Assembly (NCBI RefSeq): GCF_011089885.1
Contig: NZ_JAANBD010000025.1
Location: 372,001 to 436,000 of the forward strand
Reading direction: 5' to 3'
Length of the DNA: 64,000 bases
From: Thioalkalivibrio sp. XN279
Lineage (GTDB): Bacteria > Pseudomonadota > Gammaproteobacteria > Steroidobacterales > XN24
Each line of letters starts with the position of its first letter. The first letter of the stretch is position 1. This document shows positions 9,720-44,914 of this stretch, piece by piece. The position numbers and the translations under genes were made by a program. The notes under the pieces were generated by a model. That model was not told the origin of the DNA and searched no databases. It was given only the letters and a program-made list of their open reading frames with translations.

Positions 9720-11573
9720 TCAATTCCCATCACGAAAGATGTTGAATCGGGCTGCTTGATACTCACGTAACTCCCGAAACGCTTGTGCAGATGCCCCTAG
9801 GTAGGCCTCCCGCAGTCGGGCCTTCAACGCCACCTTCTCCCTCTCAACTTCACGAAGCATTTCTTCCCGCATCTCCTCACGATGAAGGCTTTCGTCCACG
9901 AAATTAAAAGCGGCGTCAGTTCCTAGCCATGTGGCGGCCAATAGCACCGGAACGCAGATGATGGCGTAAGGGCCGCACGCTAGACCTGCAGCACCACCGG
10001 TGGTCATCGTGGCCGTCCTTGTCGCACCTTTGGCCGCAATTGCAGACATTGCGCGTTTCATCGCCAACCCATTGACCATTCTTGCGCCCATTCGGCCATT
10101 CAAACGCGTACTCAGAATGCCTGCGCCCACTCCGATCCCGACCAGCGACTTATTGAGATGATCCTCCAGTCGCGCAGCGGGCTGCTGCAGCTCGACGCAG
10201 CTGGCCTCTTGGATCAGTCGATCGACGACAGCATCGTGTCCGCTATAGGCCGCCTTCACTGATGCCTCGAACTCGCCACGGATTCCGTCCGCAGCATCTG
10301 CAATTGCTGGTGCCAATGCATTACGCACATAGGAATCCACCTTCGAGGCCATGTATCTGTCAAACGCATCGGATTCCATAGCAGACGCGGCAAGGTATCC
10401 GAGCTGCGCATACTGCCCCTCAATACTGAAGTTCCAATCCAGGAAGCTATCGACTGCCTGCTCAGTTCGCTCGAAAGCAGCGTCTATGCGCTCATCGAGC
10501 AGGGCAAGGATTCGTGCATCAAGCTCAGCTTGCCGATTGACAAGCTCCTCTGAGGCGCGTTGGGACGCGGTTTGGACGCGACTTGAACGACGCGCTCCGC
10601 AGGGGTCCGTAGGAAGAAGCTGGGAAATTCCTAAGTTCCCTGAATCCGGCCATTTCGGCAAACGTGTACCGCTGTCATGTAGACCATAGAGAATAGCCAG
10701 AGCTGCGCCGAAGCCCATTAGCACTGCTCCCTTCGGAACCCAGCGGGCCTGCGTGTCTAGCTGCACCGTCGATAACTTAGAAAACAGCACGACTATTCCA
10801 AGGAAAACCTGCCAGACCGCGCCAAGTTTCAATGCCATCCACGCGAACGCTAGTCCGGACGCCAAAAGAAGCGCGGGCCCCTTTGCGACGGCGCTGGCGA
10901 GCTGGATCGCATGCCATACCCCAGCGGATATCGCACTATCCAGGCCCAACAACCAACCCACGGGAGCCCATTCGGCCGCCCGATATCCCTTCAGGTAGGC
11001 CGCTTGGAGGAGATCCGGCCAGGACAAATGACTCGACACCGGGACTTCTACCCAGAACACCTGCATCAACGCGACCACGAGCGAAACTAGGGCAAGGTTG
11101 GACCAGAATGCGATTCGCAAGATCACTGCAAGCCGGTACTCAGGCGCTACGTCGTGACCCCAAAGCCTTGATGCGATCCCGAACACCAATAGGAAGCTGG
11201 GGACGCTCACAATGATGACTAACCATTCATGGAGATCAAGTTGTGCCGTTAAAAGCAGCGCCAGGAGCGACGTGAACAAGGCTGTGAAGATCAGTCGAAC
11301 GCGAAGCAGGTTCCCACGCCAGAACCATCGCCGAAAGCGGCTCTCTTCAACCGTGACGTGAGAAAGGAATGCTCGACGATTGAGGACACAAATTGGCACA
11401 AGATACTGATAGACGAGGCAGCCAAGCAGCATGACGACGGCCCCCACCGTCATGGGACTCATGTCTGAGACCGGGTAGGAATGCAGTAAGCCCAATGCGG
11501 TCGCGATTCCGAAGAATGAACCTAGCCAAGGATTTACTTGGGGTTTCGCGATATCTTTCGATTTAGAGGCCAT
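9720..11573 (-). CDS. Large multi-pass membrane protein, function unknown
   Basis: About 617 residues. I chose the second of two close ATGs (11573) because GGGGGAG lies 8 bases upstream; 11579 is the alternative. Residues about 10-310 hold roughly seven to nine hydrophobic helices, including a pair around LIFTALFTSLLALLLTAQ and SVPSFLLVFGIASRLWG. A cytoplasmic or periplasmic helical region with charged heptads follows (about 340-470), then a Gly/Ala-rich hydrophobic hairpin (ATRTATMTTGGAAGLACGPY), and a highly charged coiled-coil tail (HREEMREEMLREVEREKVAL). The overall plan, membrane domain plus glycine-rich insertion segment, would suit a pore-forming or membrane-sensing component, but I recognise no family. 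Third gene of a leftward set with 11640-12047 and 12105-12284. Confidence 0.7.
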   Translation of the reverse strand: MASKSKDIAKPQVNPWLGSFFGIATALGLLHSYPVSDMSPMTVGAVVMLLGCLVYQYLVPICVLNRRAFLSHVTVEESRFRRWFWRGNLLRVRLIFTALFTSLLALLLTAQLDLHEWLVIIVSVPSFLLVFGIASRLWGHDVAPEYRLAVILRIAFWSNLALVSLVVALMQVFWVEVPVSSHLSWPDLLQAAYLKGYRAAEWAPVGWLLGLDSAISAGVWHAIQLASAVAKGPALLLASGLAFAWMALKLGAVWQVFLGIVVLFSKLSTVQLDTQARWVPKGAVLMGFGAALAILYGLHDSGTRLPKWPDSGNLGISQLLPTDPCGARRSSRVQTASQRASEELVNRQAELDARILALLDERIDAAFERTEQAVDSFLDWNFSIEGQYAQLGYLAASAMESDAFDRYMASKVDSYVRNALAPAIADAADGIRGEFEASVKAAYSGHDAVVDRLIQEASCVELQQPAARLEDHLNKSLVGIGVGAGILSTRLNGRMGARMVNGLAMKRAMSAIAAKGATRTATMTTGGAAGLACGPYAIICVPVLLAATWLGTDAAFNFVDESLHREEMREEMLREVEREKVALKARLREAYLGASAQAFRELREYQAARFNIFRDGN

Positions 11574-11639
11574 GGTCATTGCTCCCCCAGATCCTGGATG
11601 ACGCTGGATGCTGTCGCGCCGCGGTCGTCGAACGTGCAT

Positions 11640-12047
11640 TCAGGACTCTTCCGATACATCGGGGCGTTCGATGATGTATTGCAGTCCTTGGTAGCAGAGC
11701 CAGCCGGTGCCCCCTACGGCAACCACGCCACCGGCAATCGCCAAAGGCACCGCCCACGCGGGCGCCGTGCCGATTCCAAACACCGCGAGCGCGGGGCCGG
11801 CCCAGCTGCCAATCGCCGCCCCTCCGACTGCGAATGGGATGGTTCCCGGCATCGCGATTCCACCAGTGGCTATGCCCACGCCGGAACCGACCATGGCGCC
11901 GGCGCCGCCGCCGACGGTAGCCCCTATGGCGCTGATCTTTGCCGTTGACAATACGGGCCCCGCTGCGGCCGCAAGGCCTTTGATCGTTGCCGCAATGCCC
12001 ACAACAGACACTGCACTCGAGCCCAGAACTCTTTCCTTCTTGTTCAT
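11640..12047 (-). CDS. Glycine-zipper-like small membrane protein
   Basis: 135 residues made almost entirely of Gly, Ala, Val and Ile with a short charged N-terminus (MNKKER) and tail. Segments such as GGGAGAMVGSGVGIATGGI are glycine-zipper-like, a pattern seen in pore-forming or membrane-inserting peptides and in some phage and colicin-type proteins. Two or three membrane passes are likely. It lies 66 bases upstream of the large membrane protein and on the same strand, so the two are probably co-expressed. Function unknown. Confidence 0.65.
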   Translation of the reverse strand: MNKKERVLGSSAVSVVGIAATIKGLAAAAGPVLSTAKISAIGATVGGGAGAMVGSGVGIATGGIAMPGTIPFAVGGAAIGSWAGPALAVFGIGTAPAWAVPLAIAGGVVAVGGTGWLCYQGLQYIIERPDVSEES

Positions 12048-12104
12048 ACAATTTCCCTCTTTTGTGGCAGACCCAGTCCGTAGATTCGATCGCGTTGTCG
12101 CGCT

Positions 12105-12284
12105 TTACGCGGAACGTTCAATATCCAACTTCTTTAGTCCGACGCTCCTCGGAGTAATCGCAATCAAGAAGATGGCCATCAAGACAACCACCCGCTGGAT
12201 CAGGATCAAGCTGGTACTCAGCCCGAAGCGAGCGCCGTAAAGCAGCAAGAAAATGGTCTTAGCGCAGAAAAGCTTTGCGAGCAC
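12105..12284 (-). CDS. Predicted 59-residue membrane peptide
   Basis: A short open frame starting with GTG at 12284, with AGGGGAA 5 bases upstream on the coding strand. The peptide has two hydrophobic stretches (about residues 10-28 and 32-44, for example VVVLMAIFLIAITP) and a charged tail ending KKLDIERSA. It would be the first gene of the leftward membrane-protein set, 57 bases before the glycine-zipper gene. Support comes only from the ribosome-binding site, the hydrophobicity and the position. Confidence 0.45.
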   Translation of the reverse strand: MLAKLFCAKTIFLLLYGARFGLSTSLILIQRVVVLMAIFLIAITPRSVGLKKLDIERSA

Positions 12285-12405
12285 TTGAGTTCCCCTTTAT
12301 CCGTTTTGTTTCCCGTTTTGAACTCGCCCTTCCCAGCGAACTCCTTCGACGAAAGATAAGGCGACATACACATCAACGATCCACCTCGAGAGCTTTTTTA
12401 AACTT

Positions 12406-12621
12406 CTATGAGCAGCGGAAGGAACTGAACATATTCGTCAATTGAAACGGGTCCCCCATCCGGATTTTTAAAAGCCCCTTTGGATGAGCGAGATCAGGAC
12501 GGGGGCACAAGACAGGATGATCCGGCTTGCGAAAAACGTGAGTCCTTGGAAAAAGGTCCCGACGCAAATCAACTAGACGGCCAAAAAGGTCTTTTTTCAG
12601 TTTTTTATAGATCCGAGACAT
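12406..12621 (-). CDS. Possible small basic protein
   Basis: A 71-residue frame beginning MSRIYKKLKKDLFGRL, rich in Lys and Arg. The frame continues open upstream to 12843, but that extension lies antisense to the next rightward gene. No clear ribosome-binding site and no recognised motif. It occupies the otherwise empty stretch 12285-12773; apart from it I see only AT-rich DNA that may hold the promoters of the two diverging operons. Confidence 0.25.
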   Translation of the reverse strand: MSRIYKKLKKDLFGRLVDLRRDLFPRTHVFRKPDHPVLCPRPDLAHPKGLLKIRMGDPFQLTNMFSSFRCS

Positions 12622-12773
12622 GAGTGCTTCACGCCGGCGGCTTTCGAGGGACGTGGCCGTGATCTCGCGCCCCTGAGCACCAGGGGGTTTTCGGATCAAA
12701 AAGGCAGAAAAAGCACTCCTCCGTTGACGAAGTAGCTGATATATTGAGCTTTCGCTACACAAGGAGAGTAAGC

Positions 12774-13196
12774 ATGTTTCGGGCATCCATAGAGGCAGCC
12801 GAACCGGCCGCGATGCCAACATGGTTAGCTGAAGAAAAGGCATCAGGGATGATTAGCTTGTGCCTCCAGTCCGCGTTGGTATTCGGCAGTGACCGACGCA
12901 CACCGGTTCGATTCCGCCCCATAGTCCAAGTCAGGCGTAATGGTCCGCTAAGGGCCGTACTACCGTGTACGACCAAGAAATCTCGGACATCGACTGATTT
13001 CTTCGCTTTGACGCCTGACAAAACATTTTGGACCCGGCGTCGTAGTGACGGTGAAGAGAGCAAGGCCTATTTCCGCTACGAAGTAATCGACCCGTCTGCC
13101 GTCGGGGCCAGCATAGGGACGCTTACTCAAGGTGGGCGTATTGAACTGATGCGGTGGCTTCAGGACTGCCACACCAAAGGCCCCTGGCATGAGTAG
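12774..13196 (+). CDS. Small unknown protein, first gene of the CHAT/PurM/ThyA-like operon
   Basis: 140 residues from the ATG at 12774, which has AAGGAGA about 7 bases upstream. It contains a compact beta-rich stretch RPIVQVRRNGPLRAVLPCTTK followed by FFALTPDKTFWTRR, faintly like the strand pattern of MazF/PemK toxins (RPvvvv..., vvplTs), but the resemblance is too weak for an assignment. The last eight bases overlap the next gene (ATGAGTAG). Its role in the operon is unknown; a small regulator or toxin-like RNA-binding protein would be possible. Confidence 0.65.
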   Translation: MFRASIEAAEPAAMPTWLAEEKASGMISLCLQSALVFGSDRRTPVRFRPIVQVRRNGPLRAVLPCTTKKSRTSTDFFALTPDKTFWTRRRSDGEESKAYFRYEVIDPSAVGASIGTLTQGGRIELMRWLQDCHTKGPWHE

Positions 13197-13974
13197 CCTC
13201 GACTCTGAGCTGGCGCATTTGTGGTCGCAGCGCCATGCTCATGACCCTCGCGTGCTAGAGCGTTTGTGCACGCTGATACAACAGCAGTTGATCAGTTTTA
13301 GACCACCAAAAGAATTTTCCCAATTGCAGAGCCTCGATGGGTTGCCAAGCCCGGCTGACCGGGCGCGCCAGTACGTTCAGGACTTTCTGCTCGATAAAGT
13401 CCTGACGGGTAAAGGCGATACAACTTGTGAGAGCGTACGGGCGCTTAAGGTCTTCTACCGGAGGTATCTCATTGATGTCATCCGATCCCATCGCACACGC
13501 GGTAAGTACCTCCAGAGCGATACGGTGGAAACTAGCGGTGAGGTGAGTGTAAGCATTATCGAGAACACCGCTGCACCCGAATCCAACCCAGACTTCGAGG
13601 AACTGGAGTCGCTAAACATCAGGGCTATGGACGTACGAGATTCCGCAAGGCGATTCTTGGAACAACAGGAATCGTGGGTGCAGGCATTCCTCGCCCTTTC
13701 CTACTGTCCGGGTTCCGATTCCGGCGAGACGATGCAGGCTTTGGCGCGACGCCTAAATGTTCGTTCGTATGCCTATAAGGCCGGCAAATTGGGATTCAAT
13801 TGGCACGGCGAGTCACCCGACGCATTCTTTGAGGAGACGCTGGTCGGGCAATGGATCGTCGGTCTAGGTATCCCCATTACGCGCGATAATCGAGCCGCTG
13901 TCCGTGATGCCTTGAAAATTCTTTGCCAAGAGTCGTTATTGATAGCATCGGACCAGGAGGGCGTGCAGCCGTGA
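13189..13974 (+). CDS. Divergent sigma-70-like protein
   Basis: 261 residues. The middle part has the pattern of sigma region 2: a helix with ARQYVQDFLLDKVL and then LKVFYRRYLIDVIRSHRTRGKY, resembling the F-x-RRfLiDl-R element of ECF sigma factors. The C-terminal part has a possible helix-turn-helix (GETMQALARRLNVRSYAYKAGKLG). Homology is remote, so it could also be a sigma-derived DNA-binding regulator. It starts with ATGAGTAG overlapping the previous gene and ends with GTGA overlapping the next, so translation of the whole operon is coupled. Together with 3836-9363 this is the second sigma-plus-CHAT module of the element. Confidence 0.55.
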   Translation: MSSLDSELAHLWSQRHAHDPRVLERLCTLIQQQLISFRPPKEFSQLQSLDGLPSPADRARQYVQDFLLDKVLTGKGDTTCESVRALKVFYRRYLIDVIRSHRTRGKYLQSDTVETSGEVSVSIIENTAAPESNPDFEELESLNIRAMDVRDSARRFLEQQESWVQAFLALSYCPGSDSGETMQALARRLNVRSYAYKAGKLGFNWHGESPDAFFEETLVGQWIVGLGIPITRDNRAAVRDALKILCQESLLIASDQEGVQP

Positions 13975-15206
13975 CCGGAGAATCCAAAGGCTATCGACTA
14001 TCGCCTCCCCTGGCGTGGGTCAAAAGACGACATCTGGGTCTAAGCGACGCGTTGATTGAGGGCGTTCAAAATGGTCGTGTCCCGCCGGAGATCGCCGCGG
14101 CGGCGCGCAATCACCCAGATTGGCAGGCCTACGCTACTGTTGCATCTGAAGAATCTTCCGCCGATGAAACTGCTTCGGAACCCTCATCGCCTCTACCTGC
14201 GGCTGTTCGGGACCGGATCGAGCGTTACGGGCGGTTGCGTTCCGCAAACTTCAGGTCACCCCCGCGACCCGGACAAATCATCTCAGTCGATACGCTGAAT
14301 GTGCCAGCGGGTGTGTCACTGCCGGCATTTATGGGCTCACCGGTGTATGTGCTTCTCGATGGGCCAAGCGCGGAAGTCAATGACATCTGGTACGGCTGGA
14401 TTGCGTCCGGCGAGACCGACTATGCCTGTGCGTGGGACTTGATCCTCCAAGAGTCCGATGGACCGTTTGATCCTGAAGCGGGGATGATCCAGGTATGGAA
14501 TCCAGTGTGGGCCTATCGCCCGGAGGTCGGTCGCGTCGTTGGGGAGCTAAGCGTGGAGCGCCTGCGAGCCGTTAGAGCACTTGCGACGGATTTTCTAAAC
14601 GACGATCCCACCACGGCGACGACAGCACGTCCAGGTCGACTCGCACATCGTTCCCTTAGCAATGGCGTCGAGGTGATCACCGGAACTGCGATGGGCTCAC
14701 CTGACGATCCCCGATGGGAATATCAAAGTATCCTCTTCGAGGCCGCTGAGGCCGTCCGCGAACCAGCTAGGATCGCGCTTCAACAGAAGGCCGCGTCCGA
14801 GAATCAGTTCGGGGACACCCTTTGGACATGGTTGCGCCATGTCTTCGACCAAGTAACCGCAACATTCCCTGACATGGTTTTGACACCGCAACTCGCGGTG
14901 CCGATGAGCTCCGATGCATCAAGCCCTCCAGATGACTCCTTGGAAGGCGTACTACTGGTATGGTCAGGCCGGGCGCGCATTCGCGTGTTACCGGGGAGTT
15001 CACCAGAGCAAGGACAGCTCGAAGTCGAAGCGATTGAACACCTTCTGATCGTCCAGATTACGCGAGATGACCAAGTGCTAGATCGCATCGACATTTCTCC
15101 AGGCGCGTGCGAGACACTTGCCTGGGAGGGTCCGGCAACCTTGTCACTAACCGCACTGGGCGAAACAAGATGCGTCCATTTTGCGTCGAGAGACTCCCAC
15201 GAATAG
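13971..15206 (+). CDS. Unknown soluble protein of the CHAT/PurM/ThyA-like operon
   Basis: About 411 residues from the GTG at 13971, which overlaps the previous stop by four bases (GTGA) and has AGGAGG about 10 bases upstream. No signal peptide and no membrane helix. The first half has PRPGQIISVDTL, then PVYVLLDGPSAEVNDIWYGW and a segment around IQVWNPVWAYRPEVGRVVGEL. The last 80 residues look like a beta-sandwich (LLVWSGRARIRVL ... LLIVQITRDDQVLDRIDI). I recognise no family. Its place between a sigma-like protein and a CHAT protease makes an adaptor or anti-sigma-like role possible. Confidence 0.65.
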   Translation: MTGESKGYRLSPPLAWVKRRHLGLSDALIEGVQNGRVPPEIAAAARNHPDWQAYATVASEESSADETASEPSSPLPAAVRDRIERYGRLRSANFRSPPRPGQIISVDTLNVPAGVSLPAFMGSPVYVLLDGPSAEVNDIWYGWIASGETDYACAWDLILQESDGPFDPEAGMIQVWNPVWAYRPEVGRVVGELSVERLRAVRALATDFLNDDPTTATTARPGRLAHRSLSNGVEVITGTAMGSPDDPRWEYQSILFEAAEAVREPARIALQQKAASENQFGDTLWTWLRHVFDQVTATFPDMVLTPQLAVPMSSDASSPPDDSLEGVLLVWSGRARIRVLPGSSPEQGQLEVEAIEHLLIVQITRDDQVLDRIDISPGACETLAWEGPATLSLTALGETRCVHFASRDSHE

Positions 15207-17260
15207 TGGCAACCGATATAACGACGCCTTTCCTCGCTTTACGGATCACACGAACCCGCGAAGGGTTCTCATGCGCTTACCTCACCAATACCGCCAATAG
15301 CGGGACTCGCACAGTCGACGTAGGAAGCCTCGCCGACCTTCCAATTGCTTTGCGGTCTGCTATCGATCCCGGTTGGGCAGAAAACCATCGGGGATTACTT
15401 CTCTTGGATGGCAATTCCGTTCCCACGGCGTTCGACTTTGAATGGGAAGAGGTCGACTGGGCCGGACTGCCTCTGAGACAACAGGCAACCGTCGTCCGCG
15501 GCCATCGTTGGACAAGCACTCTTCCAAGCACAAGCTCTGGCTCAATTCGTTGGCTGAACCTTTTCCCGGGTGATGAATACGAGTTCCGGGAGCTTCAGCC
15601 TTGGGTTAGTTCGGGTCGCCTCAGACGAGCCACATGGCATGGACTCGGACGCGATTGGCATGGCTGCGTCGAAACATTCGTGGTGGCACATGGCGACCGG
15701 CGCGGCATACTGGATCGCGATGGCTTTCCTGTTAAGTGGCCGGAGTTACTCCCAATCCCTCGACATATCTGGCTACTCGCTTGCGCAGAGGGCAGTGCAA
15801 TATCACTTCTCGCGCAGAACTTCCTTCAGAGAGGCGCCGACTCAGTGGTTTGCGCAACATGTCGCGTGGATGCTCCAAAGATGGCGCGGATAATCGACGC
15901 ACGCATGCGGGCTCGTGATACAGATCCGGAAGCCTCCCCCATTCAAACGGTCCTCGCCATGGGTCGCGAGATTAACTCATCCGAAGCTGGTGGAGTCTTC
16001 TCCCTCACATTGTGGGGCGAAATGCCATTAGACACCGGTAGCGGCGCCCCTTGGAATCATGCGCACTGGCAAAGATGGAACGGTAGACGTCCGACAAAAG
16101 CCTTGGATGACCGCCATACTGCAGCCGACTTTGCCTCTGCCATGGATTCATGGCGCGCGGATTGCCTTTGGCCTGTTACCGAACAATCACTTCATCCGGC
16201 GATGATCTGGGCTGCCGAGCGATATGACCACCAGGCTATGCTTGAGCTTCGCGGACGAGCGCCACTTGACTCGACGGCTGAGTCCCTTCGGGCGTATGCC
16301 AAGGACGCACGCCGTACCGGAGATTACAGACGCGCAATGGACTATGTGACAACCGCATTGCGTGACCGCCCGCCATTGCCCATAAGCAAGGACTTGTTTC
16401 TGCTACGCGCGAACATCCTGATCGATATGAATCTTCCCAATGCTGCCCAAAGATCCCTTGATGAGCATGAGGACTGTGCTGATTCATCCGACGACGAGGC
16501 CACGAGGATCGCAGACGAAGCGAAGCGTTTGGATGCCCTTGCACGCGTGTGCATTCGGCTCGGGCGGCCCGACCTGGCTCGGGACAAACTGGAACGAAAA
16601 CTGTCTCTGAGCTCTTCCGGCGCATTGGGACAGGACCGCCCTCGAGTACAGACAAGCCTGCTTTACCTCTTGGCATGGAGCCTGCTGACAGCGGATGGCG
16701 GACTTCAGGCGCGTCGAGCACGAGCAAAAGAACTGGCTCAATGGGGCATCAATTTTCTTCGCCCCGAGTCCGTTGCCAACACACCAGAAGCCAATCACGA
16801 CAAACTCTATCTCGCGCGGGCTCTAGCCGCCTACGCTTGGGCAAGCGGTGATTACGATATCGCGCGAATGCTGGCGCCATGGAGGCATTTTGCTAGAGAG
16901 CGCCTTGGCGATGTCGATCCCGGCCCATGGAGTTACATAATCCACTTCGGCCACCTGATGGCAGAGCGTGATCCCTCTTTAGTACACGAGAGCGATTATC
17001 AGCGTGCCCAAGACGCCCTGAAGGAGGCACGGTATGACCTCGAGTCGGCGATCTTCGCCACCCTCGCCGAAGACGTGATGACACGAGACACCATGTACCG
17101 GCGATTCAACACGCGCCGCAAGGCTCTATTACACGATGCCACGGACGAGGTGACGACTGCCGAAGCAGAACAGCGTGCCGAGACCGAGCACGCTGTCCTA
17201 TTTGCCACGAGGGAACATATTACGGAACGCATGGTGATGACGGGAGTTTTGCCGCTGTGA
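15170..17260 (+). CDS. CHAT-TPR protease-like protein
   Basis: About 696 residues. The first third carries a CHAT (caspase-like) core: FVVAHGD with the presumed catalytic His (H174 from this start) and IWLLACAEGSAISLLAQNFL with the presumed Cys (C205), followed by GADSVVCATCRVDA, the strand that closes the fold. The second half consists of TPR-like helix pairs (for example RTGDYRRAMDYVTTALRDRPPL). The ATG at 15170 overlaps the preceding gene by 37 bases; a GTG at 15206 in a TAGTG overlap is an equally good start. The protein is cytoplasmic, unlike the exported CHAT protein at 5206-9363. It is likely the effector peptidase of the operon; whether PurM- and ThyA-like partners produce its trigger is an open inference. 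Confidence 0.75.
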   Translation: MRPFCVERLPRIVATDITTPFLALRITRTREGFSCAYLTNTANSGTRTVDVGSLADLPIALRSAIDPGWAENHRGLLLLDGNSVPTAFDFEWEEVDWAGLPLRQQATVVRGHRWTSTLPSTSSGSIRWLNLFPGDEYEFRELQPWVSSGRLRRATWHGLGRDWHGCVETFVVAHGDRRGILDRDGFPVKWPELLPIPRHIWLLACAEGSAISLLAQNFLQRGADSVVCATCRVDAPKMARIIDARMRARDTDPEASPIQTVLAMGREINSSEAGGVFSLTLWGEMPLDTGSGAPWNHAHWQRWNGRRPTKALDDRHTAADFASAMDSWRADCLWPVTEQSLHPAMIWAAERYDHQAMLELRGRAPLDSTAESLRAYAKDARRTGDYRRAMDYVTTALRDRPPLPISKDLFLLRANILIDMNLPNAAQRSLDEHEDCADSSDDEATRIADEAKRLDALARVCIRLGRPDLARDKLERKLSLSSSGALGQDRPRVQTSLLYLLAWSLLTADGGLQARRARAKELAQWGINFLRPESVANTPEANHDKLYLARALAAYAWASGDYDIARMLAPWRHFARERLGDVDPGPWSYIIHFGHLMAERDPSLVHESDYQRAQDALKEARYDLESAIFATLAEDVMTRDTMYRRFNTRRKALLHDATDEVTTAEAEQRAETEHAVLFATREHITERMVMTGVLPL

Positions 17261-18405
17261 CGATGGGCCAGCTTGACCCCTACTCCGCTGATGACGACAG
17301 GACAGTTCGCGAACTCGGCGAACGCTCTGTCGTAGCCAATTTGACAAGCGCCATGCGTTTGCCCGAATTCCTATTGGACGGCTATGGGCATGATGCGGCA
17401 TTCGTCGACATCCTCCTGGGTTCTAATGAGGTACTCGCGATCAACACCGATCGCTCCGGCATCAATATTGCCTACAAACTCGGCCTCGCGGGGCCCGAGT
17501 GCATCGGGGATCTCGGAATCTCGCACGCGGTTAGCGACATTGTTGTAGCCGGCGGCACACCACGAGCGATAACCATTGGACTGCTATTGCCCCCGGAAAC
17601 AACGATGGGATTCGTTCGCGGCGTAATGAGAGGCGCTGAAGTCGCCGCCGAACGTTATGGCGCGTCAATCGTCGGCGGAGACACTAAGCAGAACCCCAAG
17701 TTCGCGATCGTTGTTACCGCGATCGGCACGGTATTACGAGATAAGCGCCTGGGGCGGTCCGGCGCACGACCAGGTGACGCACTCGTCGTGACAGGAACTC
17801 TCGGGTCTATGCTTCTCGGCCGGATGACACTTCGCAATCCCGTAGAGATCGACGACGATACCCGCCTAATTCTCACGAACGCACTCGTAGAACAGCGTCC
17901 GCCTTTCCATCTCGGCCTTGCGGTCGCCAAATCTGGGATCGCCCATGCGGGAATCGACATCAGCGACGGCCTACCGGGTGCGATACATGCGATTTGCGGC
18001 GCCAGCGGCCTCGGCGCCTTAGTCGATGAGGATCGAATCCCGCTGCATTCTCGCTTAACAGGGATCATCAAATCGTCTGGCTTGACTCCACTAAGCCTCA
18101 GTGCAGCCGGCGGAGATTGGCAGTATCTGTATTCCATTCCTACTGGCCAGTTGGCGACCCTGAAGGAACTTGCTGAAGTAGCGGGGACGGCAGTTACGGA
18201 AATCGGACGAGTTATCGAGCGACCTATCCTCGCGGTCCGAACGATTGATCGGGAGTGGCGCGAACTCAAGCGGATTGAGCATGACAGCTTCGCTGATAGC
18301 GCCACAGGCGGCGGCCATTTCGACAATATCAGCCCGCAGATGTCTTGCGTCGGAGAGCTGCTGGACGAACGTCAATGTGACATTCTTTTCGGTGTCAATG
18401 CTTGA
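17257..18405 (+). CDS. PurM/ThiL-like (AIR synthase-related) ATP enzyme
   Basis: 382 residues beginning with GTG overlapping the previous stop (GTGA); an ATG two codons on (17263) is an alternative. The order of motifs is that of the PurM/ThiL/HypE/SelD superfamily: GYGHDAAF (the Gly-Asp/His-Asp-Ala-Ala nucleotide loop), LAINTDRS, SDIVVAGGTPRAITIGLLLP, GASIVGGDTKQ, DALVVTGTLGSMLLG and GIDISDGLPGAI. These bind ATP and metal across a dimer interface. Members phosphorylate or activate a small molecule; the substrate cannot be read from sequence. It is unlikely to be the housekeeping ThiL because it is embedded in a CHAT operon on a mobile element and has no thiamine neighbours. Confidence 0.8.
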   Translation: MTMGQLDPYSADDDRTVRELGERSVVANLTSAMRLPEFLLDGYGHDAAFVDILLGSNEVLAINTDRSGINIAYKLGLAGPECIGDLGISHAVSDIVVAGGTPRAITIGLLLPPETTMGFVRGVMRGAEVAAERYGASIVGGDTKQNPKFAIVVTAIGTVLRDKRLGRSGARPGDALVVTGTLGSMLLGRMTLRNPVEIDDDTRLILTNALVEQRPPFHLGLAVAKSGIAHAGIDISDGLPGAIHAICGASGLGALVDEDRIPLHSRLTGIIKSSGLTPLSLSAAGGDWQYLYSIPTGQLATLKELAEVAGTAVTEIGRVIERPILAVRTIDREWRELKRIEHDSFADSATGGGHFDNISPQMSCVGELLDERQCDILFGVNA

Positions 18406-19150
18406 CCCAGCTCCACTATTCAGGACCGTTGATATGCAGGAGGCAGTGCAGCGAATGGATTCTCACAAATCTCTGCGCGTAGTGCGCACACAAACGATTG
18501 GTGAATGCTGGTTACGATGTATCCGAAATGTCCTTGACTACGGAGAGCGGCATCACGACCAGGACGTCGAATTACTAGAAGTCCTTGGACTAGCTCTCGA
18601 GATCGAGCGACCGGCTGAATCGGATCCAATAATTGATGCATACAGCGACAAGACCGTGCTCGCGCGAACCCTGGCAAAGTTCGCAAAGGGGGCCTCCATG
18701 CCCGATCGGCCCTTCACCTACGGTGAGCGAATCTACGACATGATGGGTGTCGACCAGTTCGAGTGGATCGTCTCGCGGCTAGAAAGGATGCGAGAGACCA
18801 AGTCGGCTACGATCGGCCTGCTAATCCCCGGAAGCTCGTCGCCGAACTTGCCCTGCCTTACGACCATCGATGTAAAAATCCGAAAAGACAATCTCGATCT
18901 ACAATTTTTTTTCCGTAGCCAGAACATCTTTGGGCGGCAGTATGCGAACCTCGCTGCACTCGCTCGATTGCAATTTGATCTCGCCATGCGATGTGGCGCG
19001 GCCCCCGGCATGTTACGCGGATACGTCGCCTCAGCGCATATCTACGAATTCGACCTTGAGGAAGCACACCGTATTTCGCGCGGTGACATGCTGCGGATTT
19101 CTGACAAATACTATTCAAGCGGCCCTGCTTCGGTGCGTAGCCAAGCATAA
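18398..19150 (+). CDS. Thymidylate-synthase-like enzyme (ThyA fold)
   Basis: 250 residues from the ATG at 18398, which overlaps the previous gene by eight bases; ATGs at 18434 and 18455 are alternatives. ThyA landmarks appear in order: TYGERIYD (early substrate loop), NLPCLTT with the catalytic Cys (C153), FFFRSQNIFGRQYANLAAL matching RSxDxxLGxPFN, and ASAHIYEFDLEEA matching the H-x-Y sugar-binding motif. The nucleophile, RS, the Asn that distinguishes uracil from cytosine and HxY are all kept, but the Asp of RSxD is Asn here and the LGLPF loop is shortened. It likely binds dUMP or a related pyrimidine nucleotide and may methylate or hydroxymethylate it, or act only as a sensor. Last gene of the six-gene operon. 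Confidence 0.8.
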   Translation: MLDPAPLFRTVDMQEAVQRMDSHKSLRVVRTQTIGECWLRCIRNVLDYGERHHDQDVELLEVLGLALEIERPAESDPIIDAYSDKTVLARTLAKFAKGASMPDRPFTYGERIYDMMGVDQFEWIVSRLERMRETKSATIGLLIPGSSSPNLPCLTTIDVKIRKDNLDLQFFFRSQNIFGRQYANLAALARLQFDLAMRCGAAPGMLRGYVASAHIYEFDLEEAHRISRGDMLRISDKYYSSGPASVRSQA

Positions 19151-19208
19151 CGTGCAGAGGATGAAAAATGCAGCGAAGAGAAGTGAGCCTGTCGTTCGAG
19201 AGGTACTG

Positions 19209-22200
19209 CTAACTCTCGTTTGCCACCTGCCCCGAGTCGATAGCGAAAGACCATCTTTCTTTACTGCGGTCGAACCGAGTGACCAACCGCACATCAAGTA
19301 TTTGTCCAGCGGCGAGCGGATGACCATCAGGAGAGACTATGGCTGAAGGCAGGAAAAAGATGTCCGAATCAAACGCATCATTTTCGGCAAACCCGAAACT
19401 ACCCTCTGGGTGAATCCACTTTATATGGACTTTCCACCTTCGAGCTCTCAATCGCCTATCTACACCTGCTCGTTCGGTTATATCCACAAGATCCTCTAGA
19501 AGGAATCTCGGCTCGCGTCCGCGTTTCCCTGAAGAAGATCTGCTTTTCGTTGGTAGAACCGAAATGCCCGTGCGCAGCCCTGGCGGAATATCCTCCAAAT
19601 TGATCAATCCGACTTCCAAGGCGCTAGCAAGCTGTTCGCGAGACGACTCATAGAGGAGTCGTGTGAGATGGTGCTCATCAAGATCGCTCCTCCCGACAAC
19701 GCGACATCTGGCCAAGCGGATCGCGTTCATGACGGACATCCTTGCCAATATGGCACGGAGCCGTTCGCTATCACCGCGGATCTCTCGGGGGCTTACAACC
19801 CGTTCACGCACCAAGATGCTCAATAGGCGTAGAGAAAGTCTCGGATCATCAGCGATCCGTCGGAGCTCCGCCCGATAATTCGGTAACATCCTGCGCACAT
19901 TCTCTCGGACCTTCTCACGTTCTGTTCGCAGTATGTCGATCAGATCAATCTCTAACTGTGCGCCTGTCGCCTCGCTTATGGCATTCTCCCAAGTCGAAAG
20001 AAAAGACTCCGCGGATATCTTTCGTCTTCGCCGTAGCGCACACAACTCTGCAACTTTCGCAACGGACAGCACTTCTGAAATGGACGGGCGTGGCTCGACC
20101 TCAACGAGCAGGCGTTGTGCAGCGCTCAGATCTTTGGACCAGGATGAGCCCCCTGAGAGGGTATCCGGTAGAAGCTCTATCCATGGGAAGCGACCGCCAG
20201 ACACGAACTCCTGGAGAAGGCGTAGTCGCAGGATGCCGGACTCATGTGAGCTAGCCGAATACCAAAACGCCCCGCTACGTAACGTAGATCTCAAGTACGG
20301 CGAAATCGGATACTTGGGTGGCAATCGGGCCGCCACCGTGATCTCCATAGTCTCCTGTGAAACGTCCTCTCCCCGAAGGGCAAGGAGCACAGCATGCGTC
20401 CATGGATCACCCTCAAAAGGCATTGAAGCGAGACGCTTTACGTCGCGTGTAGCGACGGTCGTTATCAATGGGTCTAGCTTCCATGCGGCAACCATCAAGG
20501 CATCAGATGGCTGACCAATGAGCTCAAAAGCAAAAGCCAAGACCATTCCCCAGTTGGAGCGGCCGGTTACCGAGTAAACTTCTAATGACGTGGAATCGAG
20601 ATCTTCATGCCGTGCATACAGGTACTCGGCACATAGATACTCTTGAATCGTTTCGTGCCAAAAGCCGACCGAACGTCCCGTTTCATCCCGAGTGAGGAGG
20701 AAACCCTGCGCCATTTGGTCGATGAAGCGATCGTCATCTCTACCGAGGATCGGGGTCAGAAGGCTACGTGCTAGATCAATACCTAGGGTGTTCCACCCGC
20801 GTTGGCGAGTCCGGAATGCCAGCAATGATAGAGCATCGATCACCTGCTCTTGCGACCAGGGGAATACCCCTCCACCTATCCGCGCCTGGTTCATCTCGCG
20901 GCGGCACCAGATCTCAAGAAAGCGACGATAAAGGGCGGCTCGACCCGTCGGAATATCCCTGGATTCCCGAGCAATTTCAGCGACGATTCGCAGTAGTATC
21001 GGACTGCCCGAGATCAAGTCGCCGCCAGGTTGTCGGCGCAGTTGCTCCAAGACGTCGGCAGCCAGCCCGTGATCTAGGAGATAGGCTGTTAGAAATTGAA
21101 GTTGTTGGGTCGAATCCATAGATCGGATTTCGACGCGTGGCACTTCTAACTGCTCAACATCGCTCGTCGATCGGGTGGATATATACACCCGTGCATCCGG
21201 ATACTCGACAAGCATATTGGAAAGTTCGTTGCGACAATTCTCGTACAATGAGTCCGGACATTGGTTAAGGGCATCAAGGTAAAGGACGACCTGACCCTCT
21301 GCGACCCCAGCTGCTAGATACTCCCACTCGACGCCGCTGCTCCTTTGCAGCAGGCCAGCTAGTCCCTCCGTAGAGTATTGGGCGAGCGATGCAAAAATTG
21401 GCCACGGTCGCCCGCGCTCCCATTGCTTCGCATTACGCAAGGCAAGGATTCTTAGGCAGGTGCTCTTCCCGGACCCCGCCTCCCCAATCAGAACCGCGCG
21501 GTGTTGCCCCTCTAGCAGGCCAATGACCGAGCCACGAGATAGGTCTTCCTGCGAAGCCCTATGTCCGATCACATCCTGGCCGCCGGCAGAGGATGGTCTT
21601 GCCTTTGGCTGGAGCCATTCTTCATCTAGCTCTGGTATCGGGGCCTCAGCGTCGATACGACGCTTCCCGGATGGAATCTCTCTCAGGACTCCTTTGAGCG
21701 GTGTGAAGAAATCTTCAAACGGGGAAAGTTGTCTCTTTACTCTCTCGAGATAAGGGAAGATCTGCGTTTCCAGTTCGCCAGCTCGGCTGGGGCCCTGGAG
21801 TCGCACAAGGAACTGATCCCACAGCCGCTGCGCCTCCGGTGCGAAGTTTTCGGGAGGGTCGCTGTCAGAAGTTTCAACAACGGGATCCTCAGGCGCCACC
21901 CCACGTACCTGACCAACGCTCCCGCGCCTACGCACATAGACAACTGTTTCAGATCGATCGTGTGTCGTCCTCTTAACCAATATGTGGGGAAATCCCGGAG
22001 GTCGGGGCTTGACGAGAATTGCTACGACAACACGGTCCCCACAGAGAAACTCTTCGAGTTCGATCGACCTTTCATAGAGGCCAGGATTGACCACCTCGAT
22101 GTGTCCTTCCGTGCCGGTCCTCCAACCTCGCGCCGGATGTAGTACCTGTTGCAGGACTACGTCCCGCCGGAACGCCTCAGCTCCGTGGCGGTCACGCTTT

Positions 22201-22493
22201 CTGTCGGGATCACTCGCCTCGATTCCGACCGGCTGTCCGGAATCATCGACCCCGAGCAGCACGACGCCGCCAACGGTATTGGCCAGGGCGATCACCGCCC
22301 TGGCAACGTCCCATCGGTAATCGTGTTTGTTCTCAGGCGCCTTGAAATGCCCACCTAAGGGATAGGTGGCCGCCTTGAATTCTAGCCAATCCCTCTCGCT
22401 CCCATCCGCAAGTGCAAGCAGGGCGGCGAGACCACCGCGGGGGTGTTTGAGAACACGGCTTGCCAGCTGGCTTGCGGTTACCGGCTTAACCAT
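19209..22493 (-). CDS. Schlafen(AlbA_2)-NACHT-cold-shock-domain protein
   Basis: 1094 residues. Residues about 35-200 form an AlbA_2/Schlafen domain (DWLEFKAATYP, then VIALANTVGGVVLLGVDDSG). A NACHT-type NTPase follows: Walker A IGEAGSGKST at about 336-345, Walker B QVVLYLDALNQC at about 401-412, then arginine-finger and winged-helix regions (YISTRSTSD, GSPILLRIVAEIAR, GFWHETIQEYLCAEYL). The centre is helical repeats, and the last 65 residues resemble a cold-shock OB fold (EGSFGFAE, SDIFFLPSAI). Schlafen-type domains can be RNA nucleases, NACHT is a switch module of prokaryotic NLR-like immunity, and CSD binds single-stranded nucleic acid. The start has GGAGG 8 bases upstream. Divergent from the viperin gene, convergent with the ThyA-like gene. 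Confidence 0.85.
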   Translation of the reverse strand: MVKPVTASQLASRVLKHPRGGLAALLALADGSERDWLEFKAATYPLGGHFKAPENKHDYRWDVARAVIALANTVGGVVLLGVDDSGQPVGIEASDPDRKRDRHGAEAFRRDVVLQQVLHPARGWRTGTEGHIEVVNPGLYERSIELEEFLCGDRVVVAILVKPRPPGFPHILVKRTTHDRSETVVYVRRRGSVGQVRGVAPEDPVVETSDSDPPENFAPEAQRLWDQFLVRLQGPSRAGELETQIFPYLERVKRQLSPFEDFFTPLKGVLREIPSGKRRIDAEAPIPELDEEWLQPKARPSSAGGQDVIGHRASQEDLSRGSVIGLLEGQHRAVLIGEAGSGKSTCLRILALRNAKQWERGRPWPIFASLAQYSTEGLAGLLQRSSGVEWEYLAAGVAEGQVVLYLDALNQCPDSLYENCRNELSNMLVEYPDARVYISTRSTSDVEQLEVPRVEIRSMDSTQQLQFLTAYLLDHGLAADVLEQLRRQPGGDLISGSPILLRIVAEIARESRDIPTGRAALYRRFLEIWCRREMNQARIGGGVFPWSQEQVIDALSLLAFRTRQRGWNTLGIDLARSLLTPILGRDDDRFIDQMAQGFLLTRDETGRSVGFWHETIQEYLCAEYLYARHEDLDSTSLEVYSVTGRSNWGMVLAFAFELIGQPSDALMVAAWKLDPLITTVATRDVKRLASMPFEGDPWTHAVLLALRGEDVSQETMEITVAARLPPKYPISPYLRSTLRSGAFWYSASSHESGILRLRLLQEFVSGGRFPWIELLPDTLSGGSSWSKDLSAAQRLLVEVEPRPSISEVLSVAKVAELCALRRRRKISAESFLSTWENAISEATGAQLEIDLIDILRTEREKVRENVRRMLPNYRAELRRIADDPRLSLRLLSILVRERVVSPREIRGDSERLRAILARMSVMNAIRLARCRVVGRSDLDEHHLTRLLYESSREQLASALEVGLINLEDIPPGLRTGISVLPTKSRSSSGKRGREPRFLLEDLVDITERAGVDRRLRARRWKVHIKWIHPEGSFGFAENDAFDSDIFFLPSAIVSPDGHPLAAGQILDVRLVTRFDRSKERWSFAIDSGQVANES

Positions 22494-22783
22494 CTCTTTT
22501 ACCTCCGGCCTGCTCCGTGGCCTACGGCGCCAGTCGCTCTGAGCGATTCATCCGGCCTGCAACTCTGGCTGGTTCGTCTGGCAATCGATATTACGCGATC
22601 CCGGGTTCAGAAGGGGACCCTTAGCCGATCCTTTCGACTATATCCCCGATCAGTCCCAAACGCCCATGGCATATGGCTGCCTGCAACTTCGACCCTTGGA
22701 GCCGCGCGTTTGAAATTCGTCCCAGTTCCATCGTTAGAAAAAGCAAAGCGAAAACACGGAAGACTCCATTGGCACGTAATCAT

Positions 22784-23767
22784 ATGCTCAAAAATCCGAT
22801 CAGCACCCTCGCCGGCCCGTGTCGTTCAAATTCAATCGTAGTGAACTGGCACATCACTGAAGCCTGCAATTATCGGTGTGATTTTTGTTACGCGAAGTGG
22901 GTCAAGCCCAAGCAACGAGAGCTAATTCACGACGGCCGTGCCACACAACTCCTCCTGGAAGAGGTCCACAGCCTATTCTCAAATTACGGAACGACCGTTC
23001 GCCTGAATCTAGCCGGAGGTGAACCTCTGCTATACCCCGATAGTTTGATGTCGTTGGTAACAACAGCCAAGAAGATTGGCTTCGATGTATCCATAATCAC
23101 GAACGGGAGCCAGTTGGACCGTACTTTGCTGGAATTCCTGGCCCTTCATCTGAGCATGATCGGGGTCAGCATCGACTCCGGGGAACTCGACACCAATCTT
23201 GCGATTGGCAGGGCTGACAAGCGTAATGGATCTTTACGGTCAAGCACCGATTTCAGAAACATCTTCGAGCAGGCCCGCCGAATTAACCCGGACATTAACC
23301 TGAAGGTAAACACGGTGGTCAATTCGCTCAATTGGAAAGAAGATATGAACGCCTTGATGGCGTATCTGCAACCCCAGAGATGGAAGGTTCTTCAGCTGTT
23401 ACCCACCTATAGCCCCAAACTCGCAGTGACGGCTCGGCAGTTCACGGAATTTGTCGAACGCCACGCTAACCTGTCGAATGTAATGAATGTCGAAGATAAT
23501 GAATCGATGACTGAGTCATACATAATGATCGACCCGATCGGCCGCTTCTTTCAGAATTCACGCGGGGCCGACACGCAGTATCGATACAGCCAGCCAATCC
23601 TGTCGGTTGGGGCACGAGTCGCCTTTTCCGAACTCGTTTGGAACGCCAGAAAGTTCGCTTCCCGGTACGCGAATCTCAGCGCTTCACAGAATCCCATCCG
23701 GCAGAAAACTCACTCACGGATCGGCTCAGCAACAGTCAGCCCGAGACAATCACCCCGAACCTTCTAA
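22784..23767 (+). CDS. Prokaryotic viperin (radical SAM ddhNTP synthase)
   Basis: 327 residues from the ATG at 22784; a TTG at 22769 or the ATG at 22673 are possible upstream starts, but the core begins at residue 20. The radical SAM cluster motif is C28-x3-C32-x2-C35 in CNYRCDFC, the glycine motif is NLAGGEP, and the viperin-specific blocks follow: IITNGSQL, SIDSGELDTNLAIGR, LKVNTVVNSLNWKEDM, QPQRWKVLQLLP and MTESYIMIDPIGRF. These match human viperin nearly block for block. Viperins convert CTP, UTP or GTP to 3'-deoxy-3',4'-didehydro nucleotides that terminate viral RNA synthesis. The tail (about 30 residues, basic) is extra. The nucleotide preference cannot be read here. No nucleotide kinase gene is adjacent. 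Confidence 0.9.
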   Translation: MLKNPISTLAGPCRSNSIVVNWHITEACNYRCDFCYAKWVKPKQRELIHDGRATQLLLEEVHSLFSNYGTTVRLNLAGGEPLLYPDSLMSLVTTAKKIGFDVSIITNGSQLDRTLLEFLALHLSMIGVSIDSGELDTNLAIGRADKRNGSLRSSTDFRNIFEQARRINPDINLKVNTVVNSLNWKEDMNALMAYLQPQRWKVLQLLPTYSPKLAVTARQFTEFVERHANLSNVMNVEDNESMTESYIMIDPIGRFFQNSRGADTQYRYSQPILSVGARVAFSELVWNARKFASRYANLSASQNPIRQKTHSRIGSATVSPRQSPRTF

Positions 23768-23860
23768 GTATTAGTTGGTTTGATCAGGGAGATCTGATAT
23801 CCAATGAGCTACGAGCTGGCCCATGCTTCTGAATGTAAAGCGATTTCACCAGAGGCGAAC

Positions 23861-24373
23861 ATGATGCGTGCCCTGATCTTTGTACTCTTCTGCGTCGTCG
23901 CTGTGCCCACCGTCCATGCAGATGATGATGACCCCGTCCTCGCCTTCTCCGTTGGCGGCTTCTCTGGCGATGACACGAGCGGCATCGCCGTGGGCGTGTA
24001 CTCCCTGCAGCCGAATCGCCTTGGGTGGTACGTGAACGCCACGATCTCTTCCTTGATCGAAGACGACGAGTACTTCAGGCCCATTCCTGGGGACATCCGC
24101 GTTGACAGCGATACCGATTCCATTACGCTCAGCGTTGGCCTGACCTGGTCCGTCAGCAGAGTGACAACCTACTTCGGAGCGGGCTTCTCCAGCGTGGGGC
24201 AGTACGGCCTTTACCGGACCCCGAGCTTCTCCTACTGGTACGAGGAGAGCACTGACACCAAGGGCAACTTTAACGCCGGTTTACTGTTTGGCCTCTCCCA
24301 AAGCATCGGCCTGGATGTCGGGGCGAACAGTGCGAACGAGGAAGTCACGCTGGGTCTGAACTGGCGGTTTTGA
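23861..24373 (+). CDS. Secreted or outer-membrane beta-barrel-like protein
   Basis: About 170 residues. The start is at tandem ATGs (23861/23864) with GAGG 6 bases upstream; the frame is open to 23804. A clear signal peptide (MRALIFVLFCVVAVPTVHA) is followed by short alternating strands with aromatic girdle residues (RLGWYVNATISSL, DSITLSVGLTWSV, TTYFGAGF) and a C-terminal Phe (LGLNWRF), as in outer-membrane beta barrels. It may be transcribed with the viperin gene 93 bases upstream, but its role is unknown; it may be a surface-altering cargo gene. Confidence 0.65.
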   Translation: MMRALIFVLFCVVAVPTVHADDDDPVLAFSVGGFSGDDTSGIAVGVYSLQPNRLGWYVNATISSLIEDDEYFRPIPGDIRVDSDTDSITLSVGLTWSVSRVTTYFGAGFSSVGQYGLYRTPSFSYWYEESTDTKGNFNAGLLFGLSQSIGLDVGANSANEEVTLGLNWRF

Positions 24374-25004
24374 GAAGCGACGTATAGATATGGGTTGCGA
24401 CAATCTGCGCGTCGTGTCATGGCCGACCAAAGTCTATACACCGGTCGGCCCGAAGACACGAGATCGGTGGAGGGATTCATTGAATGAGTTTGGTGACATG
24501 GAATTGATGCCGGGTCTTTTGCCGGTACCGCGTAATCCGAACCATGCGTGATGTGGGCTACCCTCAAACTACCCAAGCAGCCCGACTCGATTGAGACCGT
24601 ATCCAACGCAAATGGCCGACGACACGCCTAGCCTCCGCCTCCGCAATCGGGCGCGGCATGCCACCATCGAATTCACTGACGGCAGCCCGTTCCTCGAATA
24701 GCTCGCGCTCGTCGTCAGTGAGGCCCCCTAGGCTTTCCAATAGACTCCCGTCCCAGCCGCAACATTAGTCACATTTACACGATGCGAGGGCTGCAGGATG
24801 CCGCGGGTGATGGCTCACAGGATGATCCACATGCGTGGCATCACCCATTATTTGCACCGGACTAATGAGCGAGCGCCACCCTGAACGCTGCTAGGGCGAT
24901 GGGTTGGCCGATTTAGCTGAGAGTCCGTCATCTGATCTTGACCCCAAAATGGGCTTCCAATAGCTTCGATTCGTGATCCTTCAAACGGCAGCACCATCAA
25001 CGCT
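24374..25004. other. Decayed intergenic stretch
   Basis: About 630 bases with no intact gene. It holds a leftward coding fragment at 24564-24764 (listed separately). Around 24530-24560 there are about 35 bases, including CATGCGTGATGTGG, that recur at about 28890-28920. The rest has many stops in all frames and looks like erosion of older cargo genes. Confidence 0.5.
24564..24764 (-). pseudogene. Fragment of a plasmid/ICE-type protein
   Basis: A 66-codon frame without a start codon, bounded upstream by TAA. It encodes LLESLGGLTDDERELFEERAA followed by SEFDGGMPRPIAEAEARR, a pattern I have seen at the ends of mobile-element replication or primase-type proteins (ERAAxxEFDGGxxRxEAE). No start, no ribosome-binding site and a scrambled tail, so it is a remnant. 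The parent protein is not certain. Confidence 0.4.
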
Positions 25005-41608: not shown

Positions 41609-42019
41609 ATGACGCTCGCTGCAAGACTTACTGCTCGTGCCAGACAAAGACAACCTGCCAGAGATCAGGAGCAATCTAAACGGGCGTCACATGCCGCGCC
41701 TCAGGCAGCGAAGGATCAACGACCCGATGGACGTCAATGCCAGAACGTATCCCAATTCCCAAGCCAGCATGTCGACATCAACACCAGGGGGGCCTCAGCC
41801 CGCGGCATCCCGAACGCGACTGGTGGTCCAGCTCATTCGGCGGCGGAATGGGTCCGTATAAATAAGTTCTCCGAACTCACGGGGTACTCCGAGGCAGCCG
41901 TCCGGACGAAGATTCAACGCGGAATCTGGAGGATGAATGTGATTTGGCGCAAAGCCCCCGATGGTCGAATTCATATCAATCTGGAGGCGTTCTACGCATG
42001 GCTAAGAAGCGAGGTGTAA
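41609..42019 (+). CDS. Excisionase-like recombination directionality factor
   Basis: 136 residues. The C-terminal 60 residues form a MerR-like winged helix of the excisionase type: WVRINKFSELTGYSEAAVRT, then QRGIWRMNVIWRKAPDGRIH and LEAFYAWLRSEV. The N-terminal 75 residues are low-complexity and basic, and the real start may be further in. Its end overlaps the integrase gene by 22 bases, so the two are co-translated. It should bend the attachment site and favour excision of the element. Confidence 0.75.
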   Translation: MTLAARLTARARQRQPARDQEQSKRASHAAPQAAKDQRPDGRQCQNVSQFPSQHVDINTRGASARGIPNATGGPAHSAAEWVRINKFSELTGYSEAAVRTKIQRGIWRMNVIWRKAPDGRIHINLEAFYAWLRSEV

Positions 42020-43134
42020 GGCCCGCCAGTGACACCAGCATAGAGATCGACTTCATGTATCGCGGCATGCGTTGCCGCGAGCGGATTAATCTTGAGCCCT
42101 CGAAAGCGAACCTGAATCATGCATCCTTGATGCGGCGACGCATTCTCGATGAGATTGCATTGGGCACGTTCGAGTACGGCGCGCACTTCCCAGACTCGCC
42201 CCGTGCCAGATCTCTTGCTCGCAATCCGTCCTCCGTGATTACCGTGGGTGAAGCCTTGGAGGCGTACTTGGAGGACAACCGAACCGCTTTGGCCTACTCC
42301 ACATGGCTGGATTATCGGAACTCGATCCTAAACCAGCTTATCCCAGCCCTAGGGCATCTAACCCTCGATGAGCTAAAGAGAAGTCACGTCAGGGAGTTCA
42401 TCAGCAACAAAGAAGCCTCTCCGAAGCGTTTGAGAAACATTCTTATCCCCCTGAGAGCGGTGCTAGCGGAGCTGGCCGAGGATGAGTTCATAGCAGTTGA
42501 TCCACTGGCCGGCTGGCAGCCGCGGTTTCCTCGCAGAGATCGAGAGCTCGACGAAGATGCAAGCGACGTCATCGACCCGTTCAGCCTCGAAGAAATACGA
42601 GCGATCGTTTCGGCAGCCGGTCCCGGATGTCGGCACATGCTCCAGTTCGGCTTTTGGACAGGCCTCAGAATCAGCGAGTTAATCGGTCTACGTTGGAGGG
42701 ACGTGGAAGACGAGCGAGTCTCAATCCGTATGACACGCGTTCGTAAAAGGTTGAAGGACCCAAAAACAACGCGTAGTCGACGCATTATCACCCTTTTGAA
42801 ACCAGCAGCCGACGCTTTACGGGAGCAAGCATCCTTAACGAATCGCGATGGCACGTGGGTGTTCTTGAATCCTGATGGCGGCCACTGGCTAACCTCTGAT
42901 CAACTCAGAAAGCGCGCGTGGAAGCCCACGATCGAGAAGGCCGGAGTCCGATACCGGTATCCCTATCAGATGCGCCACACGTTTGCTTCGATGATGCTAA
43001 CTGCCGGAGAGAACCCTGCGTGGGTATCAACTCAGATGGGGCATTGCGATTTGGCGATGATATACAAGCGTTACGGACGATGGATTCCCGACAATGCTCC
43101 CAAGGCGGGAGCTCTTGCCGAAGCCAGATGGTAG
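41998..43134 (+). CDS. int: Tyrosine-type site-specific integrase
   Basis: 378 residues from the ATG at 41998 (TGGAGG 10 bases upstream); the frame is open to 41944. Residues 1-65 are an arm-binding DUF3596-like domain (IEIDFMYRGMRCRERINLEP). A SAM-like core-binding domain follows (LAYSTWLDYRNSILNQLIPAL). The catalytic domain has Arg in TGLRISELIGLRW, H-x-x-R in YQMRHTFASMML, GHCDL and the nucleophile Tyr in IYKRYGRW. It most likely integrates this element into ssrA, whose 3' end repeat lies 1.75 kb downstream. Confidence 0.9.
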   Translation: MAKKRGVRPASDTSIEIDFMYRGMRCRERINLEPSKANLNHASLMRRRILDEIALGTFEYGAHFPDSPRARSLARNPSSVITVGEALEAYLEDNRTALAYSTWLDYRNSILNQLIPALGHLTLDELKRSHVREFISNKEASPKRLRNILIPLRAVLAELAEDEFIAVDPLAGWQPRFPRRDRELDEDASDVIDPFSLEEIRAIVSAAGPGCRHMLQFGFWTGLRISELIGLRWRDVEDERVSIRMTRVRKRLKDPKTTRSRRIITLLKPAADALREQASLTNRDGTWVFLNPDGGHWLTSDQLRKRAWKPTIEKAGVRYRYPYQMRHTFASMMLTAGENPAWVSTQMGHCDLAMIYKRYGRWIPDNAPKAGALAEARW

Positions 43135-44885: not shown

Positions 44886-44914
44886 CGCGGGTTCGATTCC
44901 CGCCGCCTCCACCA
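44886..44914 (+). other. Attachment site: duplicated 3' end of tmRNA gene ssrA (attR)
   Basis: The 29 bases read CGCGGGTTCGATTCCCGC then CGCCTCCACCA: a T-arm with 5-bp stem, the 3' strand of an acceptor stem, discriminator A and encoded CCA. CGCCTCC fits a GGGGGCG-type tmRNA acceptor with one G-U pair. No D-arm, anticodon arm or tag-peptide region lies upstream, so this is a partial copy, as left at one end of an element integrated into the 3' end of ssrA. The intact gene should lie left of the window. A near copy TTCCCGCCGCCTCCGACCAA at 44948-44967 may be part of the original terminator or a degenerate second site. Confidence 0.75.

Follow-up and report, generated by a model that had tools for sequence, protein, structure and literature searches.

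A prokaryotic viperin gene lies back to back with a SLFN-NACHT gene in an ssrA-integrated island of Thioalkalivibrio sp. XN279

In a 64,000-nucleotide stretch of DNA from Thioalkalivibrio sp. XN279 (hereafter the window), a prokaryotic viperin (pVip) gene and a gene encoding a SLFN-NACHT protein diverge from a 290-base intergenic region. This arrangement had been described in a sequence-only reading of the window and was borne out here, as both open reading frames were located and the viperin exceeded the cut-off of its equivalog model. We infer that the two genes are probably independent defences that stand back to back in one acquired island integrated at ssrA. The biochemical activities assigned to both proteins below are predictions from family membership and domain content. 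Taken alone, the locus extends the known kinds by one viperin and by a NACHT protein of unusual architecture, with a SLFN effector and a cold-shock-like C-terminus. The wider comparison outweighs the locus itself: the tree of this viperin subfamily shows repeated replacement of the upstream gene. The coordinates of the features are summarized in Table 1.

Table 1 Features of the window and of the compared loci
Feature	Position	Strand	Basis or remark
CHAT-domain protein, 1463 aa	4972..9363	+	In island; weak PADLOC BovA match (18 bits)
Small protein, sigma-factor-like (by eye)	13189..13974	+	First gene of operon
TPR protein with CHAT-like LACAEG...GADSVV stretch (by eye)	15107..17260	+	Precedes the ThiL-like/ThyA-like pair
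AIR-synthase-fold (AIRS) protein, closest to ThiL	17257..18405	+	Short overlaps (a few bases) with neighbouring operon genes
Thymidylate-synthase-fold protein, closest to methanogen-type TIGR03283	18398..19150	+	Convergent with the NACHT gene
SLFN/AlbA_2 + NACHT + C-terminal cold-shock-like protein, 1094 aa	19209..22493	-	Pfam, motifs, PDB matches
Divergent intergenic region, 290 bases	22494..22783	.	No promoter-like match, palindrome or ankyrin-type hairpin
pVip, prokaryotic viperin, 327 aa	22784..23767	+	Curated models and family residues
Tyrosine integrase (Arm-DNA-bind_2, Phage_integrase)	41944..43134	+	Beside right island end
attR, 29-base copy of tmRNA 3' end	44886..44914	+	Repeat comparison
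attL, 3' end of intact ssrA	G000:C25:351564-351592		ssrA gene at G000:C25:351231-351592
Hairpins between ankyrin and viperin genes (examples)	L031:9864-9937, L042:9852-9916, L068:9842-9918, L098:9840-9903		17 more loci

The viperin gene

Viperin is an antiviral enzyme that animals also possess. Curated models and conserved residues confirmed, at the level of sequence, that the gene encodes a genuine and intact prokaryotic viperin, a family reportedly described by Bernheim et al. in 2021. The protein scored 334.7 bits over residues 18-295 against the NCBIfam viperin equivalog NF038283, whose cut-off is 180 bits. It was also matched by the PADLOC model of pVip "not associated with kinases" (PDLC02903) with an E value of 1.8e-96, and this model outscored the kinase-associated one. 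In common with known pVip, it has an intact radical-SAM cluster motif CxxxCxxC (C28-x3-C32-x2-C35) and retains the family residues GGEP (78-81), IGR143, RWK201 and ExNxxMxxSY (E237xN239xxM242xxS245Y246). Among the nearest solved structures are viperins and viperin-like enzymes. The window viperin scored 321 bits, against at most 94 bits for any other match in its own genome and in 295 genomes of the order; therefore, the match is not a generic radical-SAM one, and this gene is the one true pVip among the 296 genomes of the order. Its identity to 80 retained relatives was 40-51%. The likely start codon is the ATG at 22784, which leaves 290 bases to the NACHT gene, and it was preferred because the lengths of homologues and the N-terminus of the relatives fit it. 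An alternative in-frame ATG upstream at 22673 would give a protein of 364 aa and a gap of about 180 bases.

The C-terminal tail beyond the conserved R294 is unusual and has no clear similarity to the tails of relatives. Together with its position as the sole pVip of the order, this tail would fit a decayed or idle passenger whose product has no antiviral role in this host. However, tail length differs among the relatives anyway, and the frame is open over its full length with every alignment-invariant residue present. We consider such a passenger improbable. Since the gene belongs to the prokaryotic viperin family, its protein is expected to form a ddhNTP: the enzyme would turn at least one of the NTPs into its ddhNTP, and the ddhNTPs would then terminate the RNA chains made by phage polymerases. 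Such chain termination is the activity for which the viperin family is known.

The SLFN-NACHT gene

The protein encoded on the opposite strand contains a SLFN_AlbA_2 domain (aa 33-192; 35.4 bits, Pfam gathering cut-off 25.3) and a NACHT domain (aa 333-472; 29.2 bits, gathering cut-off 26.7) with Walker A (GEAGSGKS, 337) and Walker B (VVLYLDALN, 402) motifs. The SLFN signature is present as E33xxxxE38FK (ExxxxEFK) and ANTVGG (ANTxGG). Judging from these motifs, which also occur in related non-nuclease domains, the domain is a potential Schlafen-type nuclease. The best PDB matches of the N-terminus were Schlafen proteins, at statistically insignificant scores. For the last 85 residues, all 20 listed PDB matches were cold-shock proteins (best E value 0.0077), and the Pfam CSD model aligned there (aa ~1023-1071) below its cut-off, with an E value of 0.097.

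This protein resembles bNACHT, Avs and EruA in its central NACHT ATPase with Walker A/B motifs, N-terminal effector-like domain and long C-terminal part, but differs from them in its SLFN/AlbA_2 effector and cold-shock-like C-terminus. Its score against the EruA model was 29 bits, where the cut-off is 1000, and the PADLOC search gave no convincing match. No full-length relative was detected in 369 genomes of the class and 398 of the phylum, viral contigs contained no relatives, and plasmids gave matches at the level of the NACHT domain only, with no full-length relative. From its domains, the protein is predicted to be an oligomerising STAND sensor. Its C-terminal part, ending in a cold-shock fold of nucleic-acid-binding type, may sense a ligand, upon which the NACHT ATPase would assemble and switch on the Schlafen-type domain at the N-terminus; cleavage or binding of tRNA/RNA or DNA by this domain would then stop the infected cell. 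The protein encoded at L112:1-2184 has a SLFN start resembling that of the window protein and, by eye, an NB-ARC-like ATPase instead of NACHT, suggesting that SLFN-STAND fusions are a broader theme.

The intergenic region and the convergent operon

The sequence-only reading had proposed that the 290 bases act as a shared promoter co-regulating viperin and NACHT. In the corresponding model, ThyA/PurM enzymes encoded beyond the NACHT gene would supply or balance nucleotides for ddhNTP synthesis. The divergent orientation over 290 bases and the nucleotide-related folds beyond the NACHT gene are in line with this model, but no promoter-like or palindromic signal was found. The region 19100-24450 contained no sigma-70-like sites (2.6 expected), and the best inverted repeat in the intergenic region scored 7, within the range of shuffled sequences (5.5 to 9). 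Similarity to the intergenic region of the sister locus, L030, did not rise above that of shuffled sequences, and a covariance model detected no ankyrin-type hairpin in the window. The missing promoter motif is only a weak argument against coupling; co-regulation of viperin and NACHT is possible, although the proposed shared promoter finds no support in the sequence.

The enzymes belong to a plus-strand operon of five overlapping genes (13189-19150), which encode the sigma-like protein, an unknown protein, the TPR protein with the CHAT-like stretch, and the ThiL-like and ThyA-like proteins. This operon is convergent with the NACHT gene, and 58 bases lie between its end and the NACHT stop codon. 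The AIRS protein scored 174.3 bits against the thiamine-phosphate kinase ThiL model TIGR01379 (cut-off 184), and the ThyA protein 96.5 bits against the methanogen-type thymidylate synthase model TIGR03283 (cut-off 174.6); both are thus under the cut-offs of their nearest families. An assignment of the AIRS protein as PurM was rejected (23.4 bits with the purM model, cut-off 236). No relatives of the TPR protein were found in plasmids or 369 genomes of the class, none of the ThyA protein in 398 genomes of the phylum at an E value of 1e-12, and no ThiL-like matches in viral contigs.

The genes of the supposed ThyA/PurM-like nucleotide-enzyme operon therefore exist, but the enzymes are closest to ThiL and a methanogen-type synthase rather than to PurM and ordinary ThyA, and they follow a TPR gene in an operon of their own. 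Because this operon is convergent with the NACHT gene and neither enzyme has a relative beside the 86 related viperins described below, we regard it as a separate unit. The ThiL-like and ThyA-like genes and the TPR protein would then constitute a third operon beside the two defences, and a shared promoter with nucleotide supply is very unlikely.

Neighbours of related viperins

The 86 loci compared comprised the best 80 of the 231 viperin relatives that a single scan of 84,980 species genomes yielded, and six from plasmids. No relatives of the window NACHT, ThyA, AIRS or TPR protein were encoded around these viperins (E value 0.01 in the NACHT ORF search). STAND or NACHT was likewise absent from the 25 most frequent Pfam families listed for 42 large neighbours, a list in which a single NACHT instance could be hidden. 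Hence, with a NACHT relative at 0 of 86 loci, the viperin-NACHT pairing is not conserved in the loci examined, and the interpretation given in the sequence-only reading found support only in part. Nor does the locus resemble the neighbourhoods of known pVip genes with nucleotide kinases: no kinase of this kind adjoins the window viperin, and a kinase-like neighbour occurs at 5/86 relatives only, where a DUF4145 gene and a deoxynucleoside-kinase-like gene are found in a marine Pseudoalteromonas/Psychromonas clade.

Where the window viperin has SLFN-NACHT as its neighbour, the relatives have an ankyrin protein, HicA, a kinase or other genes. The ankyrin protein (PADLOC "Ankyrin", PDLC02908), the most frequent partner type, neighbours viperin at 33 of the 86 loci, and in 28 of these 33 it is encoded directly upstream and divergently. 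Co-directional genes include an FGE-sulfatase-like gene of ~620-660 aa beside 11 viperins and an unknown gene of 640-810 aa beside nine. A HicA-like gene, recognized by eye, is next to about 10 of the 86; linkage of HicA and viperin has been published (PMC10865869). The window is similar to the HicA contexts in that viperins are paired there with other potential RNases, but it has no HicA, and the role of potential RNase would here fall to the SLFN domain of the NACHT protein. A TPR-associated viperin type has been mentioned for Archaea (PMC12988326).

In 28 of the 83 relatives whose upstream gene could be read, that gene is divergent and encodes at least 500 aa. This slot is thus often occupied by a large gene, which may reflect function rather than accident; the window protein is so far its single NACHT occupant. 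In the viperin tree the partner types form clusters and yet switch repeatedly (19 changes, compared with a mean of 47.9 after shuffling). The nearest relative of the window viperin, L030 (50% identity), is its sister in the tree, and its divergent upstream gene (L030:8159-9862) encodes a 567-aa Nudix-domain protein, which could act on modified nucleotides.

These observations raise the alternative that a divergent large sensor or regulator works with viperin, switching it on or limiting it, and that SLFN-NACHT-CSD has replaced the ankyrin protein here as Nudix has in the sister. The repeated changes on the tree, the frequent divergent ankyrin partner and the large divergent non-ankyrin genes of both sisters argue for such an exchangeable partner, as does the conserved intergenic element of the ankyrin class described below, which suggests coupling in that class. 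Against it, there is one NACHT instance only, the window has no ankyrin-type element, and adjacency by chance is expected inside a defence island; moreover, the sister relationship is modestly supported (SH-aLRT 83) in what is a quick tree. The NACHT protein also has no sequence similarity to the ankyrin or other partners (hhalign probability with the ankyrin family, 0.1%). The locus shares with the ankyrin-viperin pair the viperin subfamily and a large divergent gene immediately upstream, but differs from it in an unrelated partner and in lacking the covarying hairpin. An exchangeable partner is therefore unlikely, and we retain two independent defences as the preferred reading; if true, the alternative would link a bacterial NLR relative directly to ddhNTP immunity.

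Two ankyrin-partner remnants were observed on Acinetobacter plasmids (L149:5343-7262 and L150:5343-7261) beside IS1006; no viperin is annotated in their vicinity, and they are apparently broken viperin pairs.

The hairpin of the ankyrin-viperin loci

A long inverted repeat, TGAAA-n5-CGTACCCCC ... GGGGGTACG-n5-TTTCA, lies between the ankyrin and viperin genes. In an alignment of 16 sequences, 84% of the cells pair and 14 of the 18 pairs have changed on both sides, and neither shuffles nor slid registers of the alignment came near the observed pairing. A covariance model run against 1.5 Mb, including the window and the other viperins, recovered the hairpin at 21 of the 33 ankyrin loci and at no other place; as 16 of those 21 loci had served to build the model and the other five are mostly close relatives, this recovery is not an independent confirmation. 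In 12 whole genomes, the hairpin was present at one place per genome, and in two of them the same repeat was also matched on the opposite strand. Since the loop length varies, the element seems to be a hairpin rather than an operator of fixed spacing. Its conservation between the genes suggests a real coupling of ankyrin and viperin, in which it may be an attenuator or operator; more speculatively, it could be a leader attenuator with C/G runs that respond to ddhNTPs. With this hairpin and the changing upstream partners, it becomes possible to test directly what switches bacterial viperins on.

The island at ssrA

The two genes lie in a 65,293-base (65.3-kb) island that has integrated at the ssrA (tmRNA) 3' end and is flanked by a 29-base direct repeat. 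A tRNA-Ala predicted at 43521 was rejected as the attachment site, as it falls within an ORF; the true junction is formed by the 3' end of tmRNA. The G+C content is 57% in the part of the island within the window and 65% outside it. The DNA to the right of ~44.9 kb is closely matched in both other genomes of the genus, in which positions 1-19900 of the window have only short repeat matches. The viperin and NACHT genes look horizontally acquired because both are rare, the former in the order and the latter in the genomes of the class and phylum. The left end of the island contains type III-like restriction-modification genes, a gene for a UvrD-PD-(D/E)XK protein and one for a TmtA-like sacsin protein. 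Since the locus is a typical integrated defence island, it is no surprise that the viperin and NACHT genes, as two defence genes, are neighbours in it. At the same ssrA site, another genome of the genus (G011) carries different DNA.
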